A stretch of DNA of 64,000 nucleotides from Rhodovibrio salinarum DSM 9154 (lineage in GTDB: Bacteria; Pseudomonadota; Alphaproteobacteria; Kiloniellales; Rhodovibrionaceae), in contig NZ_KI911559.1 in assembly GCF_000515255.1 (NCBI RefSeq), positions 1,878,824 to 1,942,823 on the forward strand, given 5' to 3'. The notes under the pieces are model-generated. The model was not told where the DNA came from. It made no database searches and worked only from the letters and a program-made list of their open reading frames with translations. Shown piece by piece: positions 4,578 to 34,442 of this stretch (positions are counted from its first letter, which is position 1; each line of letters begins with the position of its first letter). A program made the translations under genes and the position numbers.

Positions 4578-5216
4578 TCACCCCCGCACCACCGCCAGCG
4601 TCGTCTCGGCGCCTTTCGCGCAATCTTCCAGATACCGCCAGACGTATTCGGCGAAGGAGCGCCGGCAGTAAAGGTCGAGGCTCGGCGTGTCGTCCTTGAG
4701 GTGCAGGGTCACGCCGGTGTGGCGGCCGAACAGGGTCTGCTTGACCTGGCCCGGCTGGAAGGCGCGCGGATGCATGTCGAGCGGGACGGCGCGTTCCAGA
4801 ACCTCACGGGCGTCCGGCCCGGTGATCCCGATCGTGGTCTGCGCGCCGGAGACATCGAGCACCTGAGCGAACACGCCGTCGAGCACGCCGGTCAGCTTGG
4901 TGAGCAGGTCGGCGCCGGCGTCCGGGGCCGGGTCGTCAACCACGAACAGCCACTCGTCCGGGCCAAGCCAAAGGATGTGCAGCGGTCCGGCGCTGGCGGC
5001 CGTGTTGGGGGTGGTCGGCAGGTCCAGGCCGGTCGCGTCCTTGACCGCCTGCTGGGCCGTGGGCTCGCGCGTCAGGTCGACGCGCAGGGTTACTAGGCCC
5101 CGGAAGTTGCATGGGATCAGGCCGATACCGGCGCCCTGCAAGCCGTCCTGCGTGCGCGCGGCGAGGTGGAGTGGGTCAAACGGGCTGTGCCGCAGGCTAG
5201 CCGCGGTCGTCATCAT
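4578..5216 (-). CDS. soxG: Sarcosine oxidase gamma subunit
   Basis: A 212-residue protein and last gene of soxB-soxD-soxA-soxG. SoxG is the small subunit that completes the heterotetrameric sarcosine oxidase and belongs to the GcvT/folate-binding superfamily. The protein carries LHILWLGPDEWLFV and DVSGAQTTIGITGPDAREVL, which are typical of SoxG. The open frame runs further upstream, but the first supported start is the ATG-ATG pair at 5216/5213, 4 bases after the soxA stop. The frame before it is soxA read in another phase. It converges with betA, with 65 bases between the stops. Confidence 0.92.
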   Translation of the reverse strand: MMTTAASLRHSPFDPLHLAARTQDGLQGAGIGLIPCNFRGLVTLRVDLTREPTAQQAVKDATGLDLPTTPNTAASAGPLHILWLGPDEWLFVVDDPAPDAGADLLTKLTGVLDGVFAQVLDVSGAQTTIGITGPDAREVLERAVPLDMHPRAFQPGQVKQTLFGRHTGVTLHLKDDTPSLDLYCRRSFAEYVWRYLEDCAKGAETTLAVVRG

Positions 5217-5220
5217 GCTG

Positions 5221-8200
5221 TCAGGCACGGAGGCGCTCCCCTTCCGGATCGAAGAACACCGGGTTCGTGATGGTGCAGGCGATCGTCTTGCCGCCCGGCA
5301 TGGGCGCGAAGATCTTCTGGCCGTGCTTCTGGTGACCGCCCTCGACCAGCGCAAGCGCGAAGGAGCGTTCGAGGTTCGGGCTCATGTAGCTGGACGAGAC
5401 GTGGCCGACCATCTGCATCGGCGGGGCGTCCTTCAGCGTCTCGACCAGTTGCGCGCCTTCTTCCAGCACCTCGCCGGGGTCGTCGGGCAGCAGACCGACG
5501 AACTGCTTGCGCTGCGGGTCCTGCATGTCGGGGCGGGAAAGCGAGCGCTTGCCGATGAAGTCCTTCTTCGAAGAGCATAGCTTGTCCATGCCGAGGTCGA
5601 TCGGCGTCACCGTGCCGTCGGTCTCCTGGCCGACGATGATGAAGCCCTTCTCGGCGCGCAGCACGTGCATCGTCTCGGTGCCGTAGGGCGTGATGTCGTA
5701 CTTCTCGCCTACGCTCATCAGCGTCTGCCACATGTGCAGGCCCTGGTCCGCCTGGACGTTGATCTCGAAGCTGAGGTCGCCGGAGAAGGAGATCCGGAAT
5801 ACCCGCGCCGGCACGCCCGCGACCGTGCCCTCGCGGAAGGTCATGAACGGGAACGCCTCCGGCGACAGATCGATGTCCGTAACCTCCTGCAGCAGCTTGC
5901 GGGCGTTCGGCCCGGCGATCGCGGCGGTGGCGTACTGCTCGGTCACGGTCGTCAGATAGACGCGCAGGTCCGGCCACTCCGTCTGCAGGTATTCCTCCAG
6001 ATGCGCCAGCACGCCGCCGGCGCCGCCGGAAGTGGTGTGCATCAGGTAGTGGTTCTCGCCCAGGCAGGCGGTGACGCCGTCGTCCATCACCATGCCGTCT
6101 TCGCCCAGCATCAGCCCGTAGCGGGCCATGCCGGGCTTCAGGGTCTTCCAGCCGTTGGTGTAGACGCGGTTCAGGAACTCCACGGCGTCTGGGCCCTGGA
6201 TGTCGATCCGGCCCAGGGTGGTGGCGTCGAGGATGCCCACGCTCTCGCGCGCCGCCTTGCTCTCGCGCTGCACCGCGTCGTGCATGCTCTCGCCCGCCTT
6301 GGGGTAGTACCAGGGGCGCTTCCAGTGGCCGACGTTCTCGAACTCCGCCCCGGCGCGCACGTGCCAGGAGTGCATCGGGCTGTGCCGCTCGGCGTCGAAC
6401 AGGTCGCCCACGTCGCGCCCGCCCCAGGCGCCGAAGGTCACGGGCGTGTAGGGCGGGCGGAAGGTGGTCGTGCCGATCTCCGGGATCGGCAGGCCGCGCG
6501 CCTGCGAGACGATGCCGAGCGCATTGACGTTGGACGTCTTGCCCTGGTCGGTCGCCATCCCGGTGGTGGTGTAGCGCTTGACGTGCTCGATCGAGGTATA
6601 GCCCTCGCGGATCGCCAGCAGCAGGTCGGCGGCGGTCACGTCGTTCTGATAATCGACGAAATGCTTGCCCTTGTGGCCGAGCGGCTTCTCGCCCGGCACG
6701 GTCCACAGCCAGCGTGCCGGCAGGAAGCCGTCGTCGCCGGCCTTGGGCGTGGTGCCGGCCTTGGTGTCCGGGAAACCGGCGGCCTTCGCCGCCTCCGCGC
6801 CGGCGGTCAAGCCGTCCTTCAGGCAGCCCTTGAGGCCCCAGGTGCCCTGGCAGCAGCCGGCCGAGCGTTCGCGCTGGACCGAGCGATCGGGCACGAATGC
6901 CGCCGTCTCCGCGTCGAAGCGCAGCTTGCCACGGGATTGGCTGAACAGGTGAACCGTCGGGTTCCAGCCGCCGGCGTTGGCCACGAAATCGCAGGCGATC
7001 TCTTCACTGTTACCGCTGGACAGGCTCTCGCCGTCGTCGGCAAGCGGTGCGGCCACCAGCGCGCGCACTCGCTTGGCCCCTTTCACAGCGGCCACGCCGT
7101 GGTTGGCCAGGATACGGATGCCTGCCTGCCTGGCCCGCTCGGTATAGGGGCCGCTCGCTTCCGCGCGGACGTCGATCGCCGCGGCGATCTCGATCCCCGC
7201 CTCGTGCAGGTCGAGCACGGCCTGGTAGGCGCCGTCGTTGTTGGTGACCAGCACGCAGCGCTCGCCGGGCTTGACCCCGTAGCGGTTGACGTAGGTCTGC
7301 GCCGCGCTCGCGAGCAGGATGCCGGGACGGTCGTTGTCGACGAACACCAGCGGCCGTTCGATCGCGCCGGTCGCGAGCACGACCTCCTGCGCGCGCACCT
7401 TCCACATCCGCTGGCGCGGCCGGTCGGTCGGCTTCTCGGCGAGATGGTCGGTCCGGCTTTCCAGCAGGTCGATCCAGTTGTGGTCATAGTAGCCGAACAC
7501 GATGGTGCGCGGCAGAATCCGCACCTCCGGATGCTGGCGCAGTTCGTCCAGCGTCGCCTGCACCCACTCCATCGCCGGCTTGCCGTCGATCATCTCGCGT
7601 GACGACAGCAGTGCGCCGCCGAACTCCGGGTTCTCGTCGGCCAGGATTACGCGCGCGCCGCTGCGTGCCGCCGTCAGCGCGGCGGCCAGGCCGGCTGGCC
7701 CGCCGCCGGCGACCAGCACGTCGCAGTGGGCGTAGCGCTTGTCGTAGAAATCGGGATCCGGTTCCGTCGGCGCCTTGCCCAGGCCGGCGGCGTGACGGAT
7801 CACCTTTTCGTAAAACGGCCAGGCCTTCCCCGGCCACATGAAGGTCTTGTAGTAGAAGCCCGCCGGGAAAAGCTTGGAAAACAGTTGGTTGACGGCGTTG
7901 ACGTCGGTTTCCGGCCCCGGCCAGGCGTTGACGCTCGTAACCGACATGCCGTCGTACAGCTCGGCCTGGGTGGCCCGGATGTTGGGCAGGGTGCGCGCGC
8001 CGCTTTCGACCTGCAGCAGGGCGTTCGGCTCCTCCGCGCCGGCGCCCAGGATGCCGCGCGGGCGGTGGTACTTGAACGACCGCCCGACCAGGTGAATGCC
8101 GTTCGCCAGCAGCGCGGAGGCGACCGTGTCGCCGGCATACCCGCGGTAGCGCTTGCCGTTGAAGGTGAAGTCGATGGGGCGTTGCAGGTCGACCCGGCCC

Positions 8201-27193: not shown

Positions 27194-28384
27194 TTAGCCG
27201 CCCCCGCCGGTATAGACCCGGTGGTAGCGCGACCCGAGGGCCGTCAGCATTTCGTAGCCGATCGTTCCGGCCTCTTCGGCGAGCGCGTCCTGGTCGTGGC
27301 CGTCGCCGATGACATCGACGAAATCGCCTACAACCGGCGCGTTTGCGCCGAATTCGGTGACGTCCACCGTAATGGAATCCATGGAAACCCGTCCGACCAC
27401 GGGCGCGCAGCGGCCTTGCACCGCTACATGCCCACTGTTCGAGAGATGGCGCAGCAGCCCGTCGGCATAGCCGACACCAATCGTAGCGATCCGGGTCGGC
27501 CCCTGGGCGCGGAAGCTCGCACCGTAGCCAACCCCCCGTTGAGCGTCAATCTGACGGACTTGCAGGATTCGCGCTTTCAGCGTGACCACCCGCTGCATCG
27601 GGTTGGGGTGCCCGGGTGTTGGATTGACGCCGTAAAGCGCCACGCCCGGCCGGGCCAGGTTGCGATGATAGTCGGGCCCCAGGAAGATGCCCGAGGAGTT
27701 GGCAAAGCTGACCGGTGCGGCCGGCAGGCGGGCGAGCGCGGCGTCGAAGCGCTCGAGTTGCGCGGCGTTCTCTGGATGGCCGGGATCATCCGCGCTGGAC
27801 AGGTGGGTCATGATGTGGGCGAGCGCGACCTCGTCGAGCGGCGATGGGTCCGCGGCCAACCGGTCGACCTCGTCGTCCGGCAGGCCAAGGCGGCTCATCC
27901 CGCTGTCGACATGCAGGGCTGCAGCCGGGCGTACGCCCGCGGCCTTGCCGGCCGCGCGCCACCGATCGAGGTCGCCTAGGCTGTTCAGCACCGGGGTCAG
28001 GCGTGCGTCCAGCAGGTCCCGCTCGGTACCCGGCAGCGGGCCGCTCAGGACGTGGATCGCCGCGTCCGGCCAACCCGTCTCAGTCAGCACACGGCGCAGG
28101 TGCAATCCTTCATCGATCGTGGCGACGAAGAAGGTGCGCGCCCCGGCGCGCGCGAACGTCGGGGCCATGCGCTCAATGCCCAGGCCGTAGCCGTTCGCCT
28201 TGACCACGGCCGCGCATTCGGTTCCGGGCGTCAGCTGATCACACAGCCGGCGGTAGTTCCAGGCAGCGGCGTCCAGGTCGACCTGCAGGAGCGCGCAGGC
28301 ACGTCGGGCGGCCGGGTCGGCGAGCAGAGTAGCGTCGAGCCCGGTCGGATGCGGCGTCCCGCCGCTGGCTTCAGCCGATTTCAT
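27194..28384 (-). CDS. alr: Alanine racemase
   Basis: A 396-residue PLP enzyme that interconverts L- and D-alanine for peptidoglycan. The PLP lysine is in AAVVKANGYGLG and the second base tyrosine is in GVGYGASF. The N-terminus LLQVDLDAAAWNYRRL and the C-terminal GRVSMDSITVDVTEF are typical. I choose ATG 28384, giving a 14-base overlap with the dnaB 3' end; the longer frame is dnaB out of phase. Next gene mlaE begins 6 bases on. Confidence 0.96.
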   Translation of the reverse strand: MKSAEASGGTPHPTGLDATLLADPAARRACALLQVDLDAAAWNYRRLCDQLTPGTECAAVVKANGYGLGIERMAPTFARAGARTFFVATIDEGLHLRRVLTETGWPDAAIHVLSGPLPGTERDLLDARLTPVLNSLGDLDRWRAAGKAAGVRPAAALHVDSGMSRLGLPDDEVDRLAADPSPLDEVALAHIMTHLSSADDPGHPENAAQLERFDAALARLPAAPVSFANSSGIFLGPDYHRNLARPGVALYGVNPTPGHPNPMQRVVTLKARILQVRQIDAQRGVGYGASFRAQGPTRIATIGVGYADGLLRHLSNSGHVAVQGRCAPVVGRVSMDSITVDVTEFGANAPVVGDFVDVIGDGHDQDALAEEAGTIGYEMLTALGSRYHRVYTGGGG

Positions 28385-29885
28385 CAGGCGTCTGGTCTTC
28401 ACGCGCGAGGTTGCCGAATTTCGTCGTTGCGCCGTCGAAGGCGAGTTCGACCTTGCCGGTCGGGCCGTGGCGCTGCTTGGCGACGATGGCTTCCGCCTTG
28501 CCCCAAGCTTTTTCGAGCCGGTCGCGCCACTTGTCGTAGCGCTCCTGGTGCTTTTCCTCCGACTCGTCGGGGCGCTGGGTCGGTTCGGCGCGCTCCAGGT
28601 AATACTGCTCACGATAGACGAACATAACCATGTCGGCGTCCTGCTCGATCGTGCCCGATTCGCGCAGATCGGCCAGCTGCGGGCGTTTGTCCTCGCGCTG
28701 CTCGACTGCGCGCGACAGCTGCGACAGCGCGATCACGGGGATGTTCAACTCCTTGGCGATCATCTTAAGCCCACGGGTGATCTCGGAGATCTCCTGCACA
28801 CGGCTTTCCGGTCGGCTGCCGGCGGTCGGCTGCATCAGCTGGATGTAGTCGACGATGATCATGCCCAGGTCCTGCTGGCGCTTCAGTCGCCGGGCACGCG
28901 TGCGCACTTGGCCGACCGACACCGCCGGCGTGTCGTCGATATAGAAGGGCAGGGTGGAGAGTTCGTGACTCGCCTGGACAACCTGCTCGAAGGAGTCGGG
29001 GGAGAGCTTGCCACGACGGATGTCCTCACTCGGCACCATCGAGGATTCCGAGAGGATACGCGTGGCGAGCTGCTCGCTCGACATTTCCAGCGAGAAGAAG
29101 CCGACGACCGCGCCGTCCTCGCCGCCGCTGTCGCGGTGGCGCCGGGCGGCGTTGAAGCCGACGTTGGTGGCGAACGCGGTCTTGCCCATGCCCGGCCGGC
29201 CGGCGAGCACTATCAGGTCGGAGTTGTGCATGCCGCCCAGCATCTCGTCGAGGTCGACGAAGCCGGTCGGCACACCGGCGATCTGCCCCTCGCGGCGGTG
29301 GGCGCTCTCCGCCATCTCGATCGCGCCGGAGAGCGCGTGCCGGAACGACTGGAAGCCGCCTTCGGTCTGGCCGCTTTCCGATAGGTTGAACAGCTTCTGC
29401 TCGGCGACCTCGATCTGGGTGGTCGCCGGGCTGTCCAGGTCGTAATCGAACGCCTCGTTGACCACGTCCTCGCCCAGCTCGATCAGCTGGCGGCGCAGGT
29501 AGAGGTCGTGGATCGCCTTGCCGTAGTGCTCGGCGTTGATGACGGTGACGTAGGCGCTCTGCAGTTCGGCCAGGTACTGCGCGCCGCCGACGTCTTGCAG
29601 GTCGCCGTCCTGCTCGAAGACGTTCTTCAAGGTCACCGCGTTGGCCATCTGCCCGCGGTTGATCAGCTTGCCGCACGCCTCGAAGATCCGGGAATGCACG
29701 GGATCGGCGAAATGCCCGGCGTGCAGGAAGTCGGCGACCCGCTCGTAGGCTTGGTTGTTGGCCAGCACCGCGGCGAGCAGCGCCTGCTCGGCTTCGTAGT
29801 TGACCGGCGGGGCACGGTAGCCTGTCTGATCGCCGTCGCCGCCTTCCGTGCCCGGCAGGTGCGCGATGTTGCTGCTGTCATTCAT
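28371..29885 (-). CDS. dnaB: Replicative DNA helicase DnaB
   Basis: A 504-residue hexameric helicase. The N-terminal helical domain (NYEAEQALLAAVLANNQAYE) precedes the RecA fold with Walker A AGRPGMGKTAFATN and the DIRRGKL, LSQLSRAVEQR and ADMVMFVYREQYY segments. The start is ATG 29885; an in-frame GTG two codons earlier is also possible. It is the first gene of the minus-strand run to purF. In many alphaproteobacteria rplI lies upstream; here the AT-rich island takes that place. Confidence 0.98.
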   Translation of the reverse strand: MNDSSNIAHLPGTEGGDGDQTGYRAPPVNYEAEQALLAAVLANNQAYERVADFLHAGHFADPVHSRIFEACGKLINRGQMANAVTLKNVFEQDGDLQDVGGAQYLAELQSAYVTVINAEHYGKAIHDLYLRRQLIELGEDVVNEAFDYDLDSPATTQIEVAEQKLFNLSESGQTEGGFQSFRHALSGAIEMAESAHRREGQIAGVPTGFVDLDEMLGGMHNSDLIVLAGRPGMGKTAFATNVGFNAARRHRDSGGEDGAVVGFFSLEMSSEQLATRILSESSMVPSEDIRRGKLSPDSFEQVVQASHELSTLPFYIDDTPAVSVGQVRTRARRLKRQQDLGMIIVDYIQLMQPTAGSRPESRVQEISEITRGLKMIAKELNIPVIALSQLSRAVEQREDKRPQLADLRESGTIEQDADMVMFVYREQYYLERAEPTQRPDESEEKHQERYDKWRDRLEKAWGKAEAIVAKQRHGPTGKVELAFDGATTKFGNLAREDQTPDEIG

Positions 29886-29991
29886 GGCCACGAGCCTAGC
29901 AGAGTCGGGGCGCTACGCTAACGGCAAACCGGCTTGTCTTATTGCGCCACTTCGAAGCGCTGATCTTGGGAAATTTATGGCTTAAACCACA

Positions 29992-30005
29992 ACTATTGCA
30001 ATAGT
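29992..30005. repeat. 14-bp perfect palindrome in the AT-rich island
   Basis: ACTATTGCAATAGT at 29992-30005 is a perfect inverted repeat with no spacer. It lies 107 bases before the dnaB start and about 175 bases before the unknown gene, so it could serve either. Regulator unknown. Confidence 0.5.
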
Positions 30006-30056
30006 ATAAATCAAGGTATATTGTGCATAAATTGTAAGTCTGAAGGTAAAGGCCTG

Positions 30057-30075
30057 ACATAAAAGATTTTTATGT
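30057..30075. repeat. Short AT-rich hairpin
   Basis: ACATAAAA at 30057-30064 and TTTTATGT at 30068-30075 form an 8-bp perfect stem with a 3-base loop. The TTTTAT run on the plus strand means it could end transcription or be a binding site. It precedes the unknown gene by about 100 bases. Confidence 0.4.
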
Positions 30076-30080
30076 GTGAA

Positions 30081-30094
30081 TTCAGATATCTGAA
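30081..30094. repeat. Second 14-bp perfect palindrome
   Basis: TTCAGATATCTGAA at 30081-30094 is a perfect inverted repeat. It begins 5 bases after the 30057-30075 hairpin and ends 83 bases before the start codon of the unknown gene, a sensible place for an operator. Confidence 0.5.
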
Positions 30095-30177
30095 GGTCTT
30101 TGTAATAAACTCAGTAACCTTAACCGTATAAATCCGGATAAACGCCTTTCTTCCAAAAACAACTTAGCGAGGCAGGT

Positions 30178-30756
30178 ATGAAATATTCCTACGAGAGTGT
30201 GTTTACGTTAGATTCCCCGTTCGACCTTATACGTAAACTCGAGAATGAAGTATGTCGTATAAAAGATGCTGATAAGTTAAATGAATTGATTGAGCATGTC
30301 CTAAATTTTGCGCTTACGGCTAATCATATTCCGGAGTGGATATGGGCGAAAATTGAAATGGAGCCACATTCTCCTGGGGATAAGTTTGAGCGAGATGTTT
30401 GGCTTACAGATTTGGGCGGCAAGCCAGAGAATTTCGCGAGCTTGCGCAGAAACATAACGTCCTCCTGTCCAGGGATGGAATTATGTCGACAAATTTCAAA
30501 TTGTAGCAAGCATATGTCTACTTCCGTTCATAACCATCATGACGGGTTTAAGAGGTTTAATGTTATTAGGACATCGAAGTATGAGGAAACACTTGCGAAG
30601 AGACCTTTCGTAGCAGTGCTGGAGCACGATAAAGCAGAGAATTTCCGTCTAGTAGCTGAGAGCGGTTCTAGGCAGTTGGATGTGGTTAAAATCCTCTGCG
30701 AAGAGGTGTTCCCATATTGGTCGGAGAAAGGGTATCGCTTATATATCGGAGTTTAG
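30178..30756 (+). CDS. Unrecognised protein in AT-rich island
   Basis: A 192-residue soluble-looking protein with no signal peptide or membrane helix and no family that I recognise. It is rich in Lys, Glu, Asn and aromatic residues and uses AT-rich codons, unlike every neighbour, so recent transfer is likely. Six histidines, including VHNHHDGFKRF near residue 120, and cysteines at several positions could bind metal, but the spacing fits no motif I know. A GCGAGGCAGGT ribosome binding site precedes the ATG. It stands alone between dnaB and cfa, and its last codons lie in the hairpin at 30747-30785. No function is assigned. Confidence 0.7.
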   Translation: MKYSYESVFTLDSPFDLIRKLENEVCRIKDADKLNELIEHVLNFALTANHIPEWIWAKIEMEPHSPGDKFERDVWLTDLGGKPENFASLRRNITSSCPGMELCRQISNCSKHMSTSVHNHHDGFKRFNVIRTSKYEETLAKRPFVAVLEHDKAENFRLVAESGSRQLDVVKILCEEVFPYWSEKGYRLYIGV

Positions 30757-30785
30757 GCCGCCAAAAGTCACCGGCCTAAACTCCG
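30747..30785. terminator. Hairpin between convergent unknown gene and cfa
   Basis: A perfect 14-bp inverted repeat, CGGAGTTTAGGCCG at 30747-30760 and its complement at 30772-30785, with an 11-base loop. The left arm contains the stop codon of the 192-aa gene. It lies 26 bases beyond the cfa stop. It can fold in transcripts from both strands, so it probably ends both convergent genes, although no long T-run follows. Confidence 0.65.
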
Positions 30786-30810
30786 CCATAGAATTGAAGA
30801 TATTGACGTT

Positions 30811-32046
30811 TTACTCCGCCGCGGCGCTTTGGCGGCCGTCCATCTGGGCGCGTTCCCAATCGGTAATGTAGTCGCGGGTCAGGGGGACGGCATCCTGCTG
30901 GCGGGTGAGTTGCATCTGGAAGACCATTTGCCCCATCTCCCGGAACGAGAGTTCGCAGCCGATCAGATAAAACTCCCACATCCGGCAGAAACGTTCGTCG
31001 TAGAGTTCGCGCACCCGATCGCGGTTGGCCTGGAAACGGTCATACCAGCGTCTGATGGTTTCGGCGTAGTGCAGGCGCAGAATCTCGACGTCGGTGACCC
31101 AAAGATTGCGGCGTTCGATCACGCCCAGCGTTTCCGATAGGGCGGGGGTGTAGCCGCCAGGGAAGATGTACTTTCGTAACCAGGCGTTGGTGGAGCCGGG
31201 CGGACTCATCCGGCCGATCGAATGCAGCAGCGCCACCCCATCGTCCGCCAGCAAGTCGTGTATTTTCTGGAAGAACTCGTGGTAGTGGCGGGTGCCGACG
31301 TGCTCGAACATGCCCACCGAGACGATCCGATCGTAGCGGCCGGTCAGGTTGCGATAGTCCTGCAATTGGAACTGTACCTGCTCGTCCAGGCCGGCGTCCT
31401 TGGCCCGCCGACGGCTTTTCTTGATCTGCTCTTCCGACAGGGTGACGCCGGTGACGTTCGCGCCGGCTTCCTGGGCCAGGTACATGCCGAGCCCGCCCCA
31501 GCCGGAGCCGATGTCCAGCACTTCCAGGCCCGGGCGGTCGAGCAGCAGCTTGGCGGCGATGTGCCGCTTCTTGTTCTGCTGCGCCTGCTCGATCGTTTCG
31601 CCCTGGGGATCGTAGAAGTAGGCACAGGAGTACTGCCAGTCGTCGTCCAGGAACAGGTCGTACAGTTCGCCCGACAGGTCGTAGTGGTGGGCGACGTTCT
31701 TCCGCGCCCGGCCGACCGGATTGTAGTACAGGAGCGGGCGGAGCAGGGCGCCGGCGCGTTCGAACACGCCCCACAGCGGGTGGTTCTCCAGCCGGAGTAC
31801 GTTGCGCCCGCAGATGTAGAGGAAATCGTAAAGTGTCCCTTCCTCGATCACCAAGCGGCCGTCCATGTAGGCTTCGCCCAGGTAGAGCTTGGGGTGGGCG
31901 CCAATCTTGAACTCTGTCTTGCGGTCTGTGACTCGGACCGTGACTGCAGGATCGCCTTGACCGAACGTAAAACGCTGGCCCTGGGCGTCGATCAGCGTTA
32001 GGCGCCCCTCCCGGATAATTTGCCGGAACAGAGTTGCGGCAAGCAT
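30811..32046 (-). CDS. cfa: Cyclopropane-fatty-acyl-phospholipid synthase
   Basis: A 411-residue SAM-dependent enzyme that adds a methylene bridge to unsaturated acyl chains of membrane phospholipids. The SAM motif is LEVLDIGSGWGGLGMYLA. Further markers are NKKRHIAAKL, SVGMFEHVGTRHYHEFF and KYIFPGGYTPAL. The ATG at 32046 is chosen over an earlier in-frame ATG because GGAGGG lies about 12 bases upstream and it gives the family-like start MLAATLFRQIIREG. It converges with the unknown AT-rich gene. Confidence 0.95.
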   Translation of the reverse strand: MLAATLFRQIIREGRLTLIDAQGQRFTFGQGDPAVTVRVTDRKTEFKIGAHPKLYLGEAYMDGRLVIEEGTLYDFLYICGRNVLRLENHPLWGVFERAGALLRPLLYYNPVGRARKNVAHHYDLSGELYDLFLDDDWQYSCAYFYDPQGETIEQAQQNKKRHIAAKLLLDRPGLEVLDIGSGWGGLGMYLAQEAGANVTGVTLSEEQIKKSRRRAKDAGLDEQVQFQLQDYRNLTGRYDRIVSVGMFEHVGTRHYHEFFQKIHDLLADDGVALLHSIGRMSPPGSTNAWLRKYIFPGGYTPALSETLGVIERRNLWVTDVEILRLHYAETIRRWYDRFQANRDRVRELYDERFCRMWEFYLIGCELSFREMGQMVFQMQLTRQQDAVPLTRDYITDWERAQMDGRQSAAAE

Positions 32047-32291
32047 AGTGTCAGGCCCTCCGCTGCTATCTGTTTCGCCGCGTAACTGTCTATAGTGGCG
32101 GCTACCGGCGAACATGTTATCAAATCTCAACTCTCCTTGAACTCTAGAAGCTGTCCAGGGGGCCGTCCTTAACCCATGAAAGTCGTCGGTGAATCGGCAG
32201 TGTTGGTGTTTAATGTTTTAAGGGTGATGCTTGAAACATCAAGATAGCATGTATACCCTGTAACGCTCTGATTTGCTTTGAAGGATCACGA

Positions 32292-32591
32292 ATGCTCACG
32301 GCGGCCCAACTCCGCGCGGCTCGGGCGTTGCTCGGACTCGACCAGAAGACCTTGGCCGAGCGGGCTGGTGTGTCCGTGCCCACGATCCAGAGGATGGAAG
32401 CCAGCCCAGGCAACGTCCGTGGCGTGGTCGAGAGCCTGACTCGGGTGGTGCAGGCGCTCGAGGCGGCGGGAGTCGAGCTGATCGGAGAAGGAACGGAGAG
32501 CCGCGGTCACGGGCGCGGGGTTCGCCTGAAGGCCTCGGCAGGGCCATCGGGGAGCGCACCCGTGCCGGGAGACAAGTCGGACCACGGCTGA
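32292..32591 (+). CDS. Small XRE-family DNA-binding regulator
   Basis: A 99-residue protein with one Cro/C1-type helix-turn-helix over residues 4-65 (LRAARALLGLDQKTLAERAG, SVPTIQRMEA). The C-terminal 35 residues are Gly/Arg/Ser-rich and look disordered. The GAAGGA ribosome binding site precedes the ATG. It lies about 108 bases before the SulP gene on the same strand; such a small XRE gene next to a SulP transporter suggests local control, which is inference. The upstream gap has a CTTGA/TCAAG dyad that may be its operator. Confidence 0.88.
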   Translation: MLTAAQLRAARALLGLDQKTLAERAGVSVPTIQRMEASPGNVRGVVESLTRVVQALEAAGVELIGEGTESRGHGRGVRLKASAGPSGSAPVPGDKSDHG

Positions 32592-32699: not shown

Positions 32700-34442
32700 T
32701 TGCCGAGCAGGACCGATCCTGTCACTCGCACCGCCGCCACATCTGGTGCTGCGGGCTTCGTCGAGTTGTTCACGCCGAAGCTGGTCACCGTTCTGCGGGA
32801 GAGCTACGACTTCAGGAAGTTGCGGGGCGACGCGCTGGCTGGTCTGACCGTCGCGATCGTCGCGCTGCCGTTGTCGATGGCGATTGCGATTGCTTCCGGT
32901 GCCAGTCCGGCGCAGGGGCTCTATACCGCGATCGTGGGCGGGTTTCTGGTGTCGCTGCTGGGCGGCAGCCGTTTCCAGATCGGCGGGCCGGCGGGCGCTT
33001 TTATCGTGCTGGTTGCTGCCACGGTGCAGGCGCACGGGCCGGATGGACTGATCCTGGCGACGCTGCTTTCCGGGGCGATGCTGGCGGTCGTCGGGCTGTT
33101 GCGTCTGGGGACCTACGTGAAGTTCATCCCCTATCCGGTGACGGTCGGCTTCACCGCCGGTATCGCGATCATCATCTTTGCCAGCCAGCTTCGCGCCCTG
33201 CTGGGCCTGCAGCTCGACGGGCCGGAGCCGGGCCCGTTTCTGGAAAAGCTGCTAGTGCTTTGGGACGCGTTGCCGACGGCAGACCCGGCGACAATCGGGC
33301 TCGCGCTTGCGACGATCCTGGCGATTGCCGGGTTGAAGCGTCTGCGCCCGCACTGGCCGGGGATGTTGCTGGCGATCGCTGGTACGGCGGCGGCGAGCGC
33401 ACTGCTGGATCTGCCGGTCGCGACCATCGGCAGCCGCTTTGGTGGTATTCCAAGCAGCCTCCCGATGCCGGCACTGCCCGACGCAACGCTCGACAAGGTG
33501 CTGGCGGTGCTGCCGAACGCGCTCGCCTTCACGCTTCTGGGCGCGATCGAATCGCTGCTCTCGGCCGTGGTGGCCGACGGCATGACCGGGCGGCGCCACC
33601 GCTCGAATTGCGAACTGGTTGCCCAGGGCGTGGCCAACGTCGGCTCGGCACTGTTCGGCGGCATTTGCGTCACCGGTACGATCGCGCGCACCGCGACCAA
33701 CGTGCGCGCCGGCGCGCACGGTCCGGTGGCGGGCATGCTGCACGCGCTGTTTCTGCTCGCCTTCGTTTTGGTGGCGGCCCCGCTGGCCAGCTACATCCCG
33801 CTCGCCAGCCTTGCCGGGGTGCTGGCCGTGGTCGCCTGGAACATGATCGAGCGCGATGCGATCGCGAGCCTGTTGACCGCCTCGCGCGGGGGCGCGGCGA
33901 TCCTGCTTGCGACCCTACTGCTGACCGTTTTCCGGGACCTCAGCGAGGCGATCGTGGTTGGCGTGGCGATGGGATCGCTGCTGTTCATCCACCGCATGTC
34001 AGAGACCACGGCGGTACATAGTCACACGCCGTTCGTCCGAGAGGACCGCGCCGACGACGATTACGGGCCGGCCGGCCGCACGCCCTATGATGGGCATAAT
34101 GCGACAGACCCGGACATCGTGGTCTACCGGATCTCCGGCGCTTTCTTTTTCGGCGCGGCAGCCTCGATCGGCTCGGTGCTGGAGCGGATCGCCGACACCC
34201 ACCGCCTGCTTGTGGTCGACTTCGCGGCCGTGCCGTTCCTGGATTCCACCGCGGCGAATACGATCCACGGCCTCGCCCAGAAGGCGCGCCGGCGCGGCAT
34301 CTCGGTGGTCCTGACCGGAACCACGCGAGAACAGCGCCGGGAGCTGTTCCAGCACGGCGTGCGGCCGCCGCTGGTTGGCTACGCGGCGCGGCTGGAGAGC
34401 GCACTACCGCGGTTGCGCCGCCGCCTGGCCGCTGCGGACTGA
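32700..34442 (+). CDS. SulP-family anion transporter with STAS domain
   Basis: A 580-residue transporter with about 10-12 membrane helices and a cytoplasmic STAS domain at about residues 465-575. The SulP core is DALAGLTVAIVALPLSMAIA and GGSRFQIGGPAGAFIVLV. The STAS domain has ISGAFFFGAAASIG and VVDFAAVPFLDSTAA. It probably moves sulfate, bicarbonate or another anion with Na+ or H+. The TTG start at 32700 is favoured because AGAAGGAG at 32686-32693 sits 6 bases before it; an earlier TTG at 32628 has no such site. Substrate not certain. Confidence 0.9.
   Translation: MPSRTDPVTRTAATSGAAGFVELFTPKLVTVLRESYDFRKLRGDALAGLTVAIVALPLSMAIAIASGASPAQGLYTAIVGGFLVSLLGGSRFQIGGPAGAFIVLVAATVQAHGPDGLILATLLSGAMLAVVGLLRLGTYVKFIPYPVTVGFTAGIAIIIFASQLRALLGLQLDGPEPGPFLEKLLVLWDALPTADPATIGLALATILAIAGLKRLRPHWPGMLLAIAGTAAASALLDLPVATIGSRFGGIPSSLPMPALPDATLDKVLAVLPNALAFTLLGAIESLLSAVVADGMTGRRHRSNCELVAQGVANVGSALFGGICVTGTIARTATNVRAGAHGPVAGMLHALFLLAFVLVAAPLASYIPLASLAGVLAVVAWNMIERDAIASLLTASRGGAAILLATLLLTVFRDLSEAIVVGVAMGSLLFIHRMSETTAVHSHTPFVREDRADDDYGPAGRTPYDGHNATDPDIVVYRISGAFFFGAAASIGSVLERIADTHRLLVVDFAAVPFLDSTAANTIHGLAQKARRRGISVVLTGTTREQRRELFQHGVRPPLVGYAARLESALPRLRRRLAAAD

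Follow-up and report, generated by a model that had tools for sequence, protein, structure and literature searches.

The presumed replicative helicase gene dnaB and a presumed cfa-like gene of Rhodovibrio salinarum DSM 9154 are separated by an AT-rich stretch that carries one intact gene for a 192-aa protein, and this gene was almost certainly acquired by insertion between the two. It lies within the 64,000 nucleotides of DNA analysed here, to which we refer as the window. The acquired gene most likely encodes a mobile cargo protein. A reading that joins our results, namely that a single foreign gene was inserted and encodes a HEPN-like stand-alone effector, most likely one that is anti-phage or limits superinfection, comes close to an even chance of being right. 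Overall, we regard the acquisition as real and the predicted defence role as plausible. The acquisition is well supported and the fold weakly to moderately so, while the function is one that we infer; the product is possibly an anti-phage protein.

The earlier note had described an AT-rich island with one 192-aa gene among GC-rich genes. This description held up, as no other stretch of the window is as low in GC as the island and its gene is intact, with an ATG start and a GAGG located 5 bases upstream of the ATG. The GC content of the gene is 0.427 (42.7%), and slices of 579 nt over the 64 kb have a mean of 0.660 (sd 0.039) and a minimum of 0.389 in the slice from 30001. When 500-nt bins were used, 30001-30500 was the sole bin below 0.50 (0.390), followed by 0.508 for 30501-31000. 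By codon position 1/2/3, the GC of the gene is 0.48/0.35/0.45, and its GC3 of 0.45 compares with 0.83-0.92 in dnaB, cfa, lon, radA and a sulP-like gene. The names dnaB, cfa, sulP and lon, as well as acnA and ccmG used below, were given by reading the sequences rather than from a profile search, and the two neighbours of the acquired gene are presumed to encode the helicase and the cyclopropane-fatty-acyl-phospholipid synthase (Table 1). The island proved narrower than the span of 29886-30785 originally assigned to it: low GC extends from ~29,965 to ~30,780, ending near the stop codon, and the first 60-80 bp of that span are the start of dnaB and the GC-normal region before it.

Table 1. Features of the dnaB-cfa junction in the window.
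Feature	Coordinates	Strand	Basis or remark
dnaB (presumed replicative helicase), left neighbour	28371..29891	-	ORF; matches in 15/15 genomes searched
dnaB upstream region, normal GC	29892..29965	-	Upstream comparison, GC profile
AT-rich 5' region of the acquired gene	29966..30177	+	Presumed promoter inside
Acquired 192-aa gene	30178..30756	+	ORF, composition, predicted structure, family alignment
Perfect 14-bp inverted repeat, 11-nt loop	30747..30785	.	Overlaps the stop codon of the acquired gene
cfa-like gene (presumed cyclopropane-fatty-acyl-phospholipid synthase), right neighbour	30811..32049	-	ORF; relatives; the ORF as listed extends to 32130 from TTG

No second copy of the gene was found in the genome, where other matches were at most 55 bp long. 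The remaining ORFs (at least 30 aa) beginning or lying in the dnaB-cfa gap are all of 67 aa or less; a 54-aa open frame with an ATG (29896-30060, minus strand) is situated entirely between dnaB and the 192-aa gene. A check of the island revealed neither direct repeats bracketing it nor a recombinase gene inside it. The acquired gene and dnaB are divergently oriented, and the dnaB upstream region contains a CTGCTAGG block that is common to G002, a genome of the same family. The shared block suggests that the insertion probably occurred upstream of the putative dnaB promoter. For the 5' region of the acquired gene, a promoter scan gave no more than shuffled sequences did. The hairpin at the stop codon (z -4.57) has no T run and sits between two convergent genes; it is likely to act as a transcription barrier.

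We compared the junction with that of relatives. cfa was matched in 8/8 genomes searched, and dnaB and cfa are direct neighbours in five of seven other genomes, two of the same family (G001, G002) and three of the same order (G004, G006, G011), none being of the same genus. In these five, the distance from the end of the dnaB match to that of the cfa match is about 137-283 bp versus 925 bp here, and direct reading of the five gaps revealed no gene of the 192-aa type. In the remaining two (G003, G016), dnaB and cfa are on separate contigs. A search with the single sequence, which diverged copies could escape, found no homologue in 57 relatives (1/58 genomes including its own) and, with the same limit, no match when 397 further genomes from the phylum sample were searched. 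As cfa and dnaB adjoin each other without the gene in relatives, cfa-dnaB represents the older order to which the gene was added. The proposal of a transferred gene is thus borne out by the empty site in 5/7 genomes, the lack of a match in the 57 relatives, the foreign composition and the fact that distant relatives occur in phage-like contigs and in plasmids. The sister-genome comparison that had been suggested as a check detected no copy of the gene in the family and order genomes compared, none of them congeneric, and does not refute transfer.

The earlier note had also supposed that the island replaces the rplI neighbourhood of dnaB. This is not what we found: the cfa-dnaB order is common to relatives, and G001, G002 and G006 have rplI at 0.7-0.9 kb on the far side of cfa. 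The gene is ~0.7-0.9 kb from dnaB in G003 and G016, and on a contig other than that of dnaB in G004 and G011. Here it is 1.2 Mb distant (rplI at C1:3137118, dnaB at C1:1907197 in G000), and we take its departure from the dnaB-cfa neighbourhood to be a separate rearrangement.

The 192-aa protein had been called unlike any family. A profile search with the window protein agrees as far as named families are concerned, with no match in Pfam, PADLOC or NCBIfam at E values up to 10 and one insignificant match in PHROGs (E 0.2). The protein also had no significant match among PDB sequences or, as a query, in plasmid and phage records. Distant unnamed relatives do exist, however, and by alignment the window protein belongs to a sparse, unnamed protein family. 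Its 23 aligned members (the window protein and 22 distant relatives with 13-24% identity to it) are mostly 150-200 aa long, and the relatives come from phage-like contigs, plasmids and scattered chromosomes. For the family at large, 14 members (nine aligned and five further ones) were scanned against PADLOC without a match at E up to 1. Pfam at E up to 10, likewise with 14 members, returned no HEPN family, only two insignificant matches to other families. None of five family queries matched an annotated phage record, and the link to phages therefore rests on predicted viral contigs and integrase neighbours.

Members were recruited from several sources. The class sample yielded L002 (protein identical to L017), L003 and L006 (protein identical to L014), and a four-row profile matched 4/385 class-sample genomes, own included. 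A wider survey of the class matched 10/308 genomes, again including its own, with a weakest E value of 4.6e-4, and one member came from a Pseudomonas putida genome (L018). Among predicted viral contigs, a first motif pattern led to a clear member in 5/17, three of them already known, and a second pattern to one in 1/56. With L064 as query, 10 of 72,556 plasmid records matched, part of which were examined; records H4, H8 and H10, each with the same coverage and identity as an included record and nearly the same score, were left out, as was H18 from another plasmid search. Weak matches L055, L056, L057, L061 and L131 were excluded from the family. Three of six weak non-own matches (L004, L005, L007) were judged to be chance, as they cover ~36-56 residues with unalignable flanks; those of L005 and L007 run across stop codons, and L004, which has no stop, was rejected by judgement, not proof.

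A Lys-His pair (K111-H112) is kept in 23/23 aligned members, a count that overstates independence because L148 was recruited via a match itself covering the pair, and in which each member of the close pairs L018/L063 and L015/L074 is counted. The motif patterns span residues ~37-56 and leave out the Lys-His pair, but the profiles that brought in part of the members contain it. His50 is found in 20/23, Trp54 in 21/23 and Trp181 in 20/23 members. The window protein retains the common residues of the family (N43, A45, A48, H50, W54, W56, K111, H112 and W181).

Each of the 23 family genes has a GC below that of the remaining locus, by 8 points on average (range 0.2-27.5, with less than 2.6 kb of flank available for L064, L146 and L148). 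As a control, 25 of 58 annotated neighbours, taken from seven plasmid loci only, were below locus GC. The low-GC stretch extends no more than ~200 bp past the gene in 9/10 loci profiled, its length being at least that of the gene by construction and L063 being cut at the locus end. In three other genomes of the class (L151, L152 and L153) the member is, as in the window, a lone AT-rich gene in GC-richer surroundings. The acnA-ccmG gap measures 628 bp in the genome carrying L151 (G307), and 87 bp (G808), 102 bp (G801) and 212 bp (G802) in genomes of the same family that lack a member at this site. Three further acnA-ccmG gaps of 361, 843 and 870 bp have other content and no family member; this survey covered 15 other ccmG loci, of which six also showed the acnA end and nine were not judgeable. 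Other ORFs occupy the gap at L160:649-1518 and L167:2014-2856, and the gap may thus be an insertion hotspot.

L152 shows a direct duplication of 191-193 bp (89% identical; 4771-4961 and 5720-5912) flanking the member, with a unit of 758 bp and 37% GC between the copies. It looks as though the insertion had duplicated its flank; of the eight loci for which a self-comparison was made, L152 alone shows this pattern. A 20-bp direct repeat around the member in L017, considered as a mobile signature, was rejected as terminator-like and recurs elsewhere in the L017 locus.

In the phage-like contigs L012 and L014, which differ from each other, diverged members occupy the same slot between a phage integrase gene and a DUF5131 gene. 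The P. putida member (L018) adjoins a C5 methylase gene with an integrase 3.3 kb away, and in L063, a phage-like contig, the integrase is 7 kb from the member. On a Ti plasmid (L074), the member lies beside CBASS-type genes (DncV-like, patatin, ThiF) and a capP-like protease gene, with an Abi protein and an AbiEii-type toxin encoded nearby. This was the one obvious defence island among the loci looked at; on that plasmid, pTi_CFBP2516, positions 1-10459 of L074 form a dense defence-type region. By eye, no recurring partner gene was evident among the listed loci.

Structure prediction, which the earlier note had called for, gave a helical bundle for which HEPN proteins were the best matches in VIA-align, with nothing significant in Foldseek. 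AlphaFold models of the window protein (pLDDT 70.3, pTM 0.70) and of the homologue L099 (pLDDT 76.5, pTM 0.74) were both built from the same nine sequences. Each comprises four main helices with two shorter ones between helices 2 and 3. The Lys-His pair ends helix 3, and a poorly predicted strand region and the last helix follow, the modelled strands coming some 30-45 residues past the pair after a low-confidence stretch. Foldseek returned nothing significant for either model and, against viral models, a single weak match (A0A516KPP1, E 0.038). In VIA-align, HepT chains were the top matches of the window protein (Z 8.7, rmsd 2.8, 109 residues aligned), with alpha-catenin (8.2) and a designed diiron protein (8.1) within 1 Z of them. 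For L099, HEPN toxins ranked highest (Z 8.0, rmsd 3.6, 112 aligned) and the next unrelated match had a Z of 6.4. A Z of about 8 lies in the range that helical bundles can reach by chance and may reflect a common arrangement only. The Rx4-6H motif is not conserved: the x6 spacing occurs in 2/23 members, an Arg at x7 (Rx7H) in 8/23 including the window protein, and the window protein has Gln, Ile and Ser at the three possible positions of the motif Arg. A profile comparison with four HepT proteins, which had low power, gave no signal. In a HEPN survey, some families are described as lacking or altering the Rx4-6H motif (PMC3710099). Judged by these models, a HEPN-like helical bundle has about an even chance of being the fold of the family.

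The HepT/HEPN toxins (PDB 6m6u, 5yep, 8xdj and 8yuf) are the best solved VIA-align matches for two family members. As modelled, the family resembles them in its four main helices, in the insert separating helices 2 and 3 and in an invariant His next to a basic residue where helix 3 ends. In contrast to these toxins, the family lacks a conserved Arg at the Rx4-6H spacing and is modelled with strands ahead of its last helix; MntA-like neighbours were not seen and no sequence similarity between the toxins and the family was detected. Proteins of the AbiV type play a role in phage resistance. AbiV (PDB 9bj7), a HEPN protein, departs from the canonical motif as the family does, but the survey describes it as keeping the basic residue and usually lacking the motif His (PMC3710099), whereas the His of the family is invariant. 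The Z of AbiV was only 4.7 for L099. The HEPN domain of Csx1 likewise carries additional beta-strands, which come after the motif and ahead of the final part of the domain; the modelled strands of the family lie some 30-45 residues past the Lys-His pair and its genes lack a CRISPR context. The window gene also recalls phage morons and single-gene defence cargo as a lone gene of lower GC, part of whose relatives adjoin phage-type genes, integrase genes among them, or lie between such genes. It has, however, no phage genes around it, and the family queries found no annotated phage record.

Our data show that one foreign gene, along with a short upstream region of its own, entered an older gap between dnaB and cfa, and that it comes from a family distributed over phage-like contigs, plasmids and lone AT-rich chromosomal genes. 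According to models of moderate confidence, its product would fold as a HEPN-like bundle with the Lys-His pair ending helix 3. The protein may be an accessory effector that acts on RNA or nucleotides by itself, most likely in conflict with phages, and the Lys-His pair may belong to a site for ribonuclease activity or nucleotide binding like that of other HEPN proteins. An anti-phage role of the acquired protein is put forward tentatively. A bolder formulation, which we consider unlikely in its entirety, is that of a one-gene immune or phage-competition family whose proteins have a HEPN-like fold with Lys-His as a non-canonical active site, and whose genes would move as bare AT-rich units, with no recombinase of their own, into gaps next to core genes, the gaps concerned being dnaB-cfa and acnA-ccmG.

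It is quite possible that the gene instead serves a phage or plasmid in some other accessory role, for example in lysogenic conversion, counter-defence, regulation or binding, and that its product is not a nuclease and the bundle simply a common arrangement. The vicinity of some relatives to integrases and phage-type genes is compatible with this, as are a fold match that is not decisive and the lack of a conserved HEPN motif. However, a Lys-His pair retained by all 23 members despite their divergence points to a site of catalysis or binding, HEPN proteins head the VIA-align results for both models, and one relative neighbours a defence island. HepT toxins being the best solved matches, and HepT being reported to pair with MntA (PMC7641770), the protein might also be the toxin of a toxin-antitoxin pair whose partner was left behind, is located elsewhere or is very small, the 54-aa frame being a possible candidate. 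We consider this improbable, since no recurring partner was seen by eye among the listed loci and the gap has no other frame above 67 aa.

That the gene is functionless and in decay would agree with its solitary position, its foreign composition and a promoter score not above chance, but is quite improbable given the full-length open frame, the ribosome-binding site and the retained common residues of the family. An old resident of the dnaB-cfa site, lost in relatives, is a highly improbable explanation. It gains from the junction having been compared in seven other genomes outside the genus and from searches that could miss diverged copies, but it is opposed by the foreign composition, by the five directly read gaps without such a gene and by the absence of matches from both the 57 relatives and the 397 further genomes of the phylum sample.

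The family keeps a strict Lys-His pair wherever its members lie, be it phage-like contigs, plasmids or chromosomes, in at least two phyla. Should the protein prove to be an immune effector, it would represent a further one-gene system, of a sort that escapes defence finders based on domains. The lone AT-rich genes in gaps also offer a clean case for studying the entry of single genes into chromosomes without mobile machinery.

Two minor features were noted to the right of the acquired gene. A weaker second GC dip at 31900-32350 (52-56% in 300-nt slices) lies around the start of cfa and a small helix-turn-helix-like gene at 32292, and a near-palindrome of ~42 bp (82%) is located at 33691-33732 within the sulP-like transporter gene.
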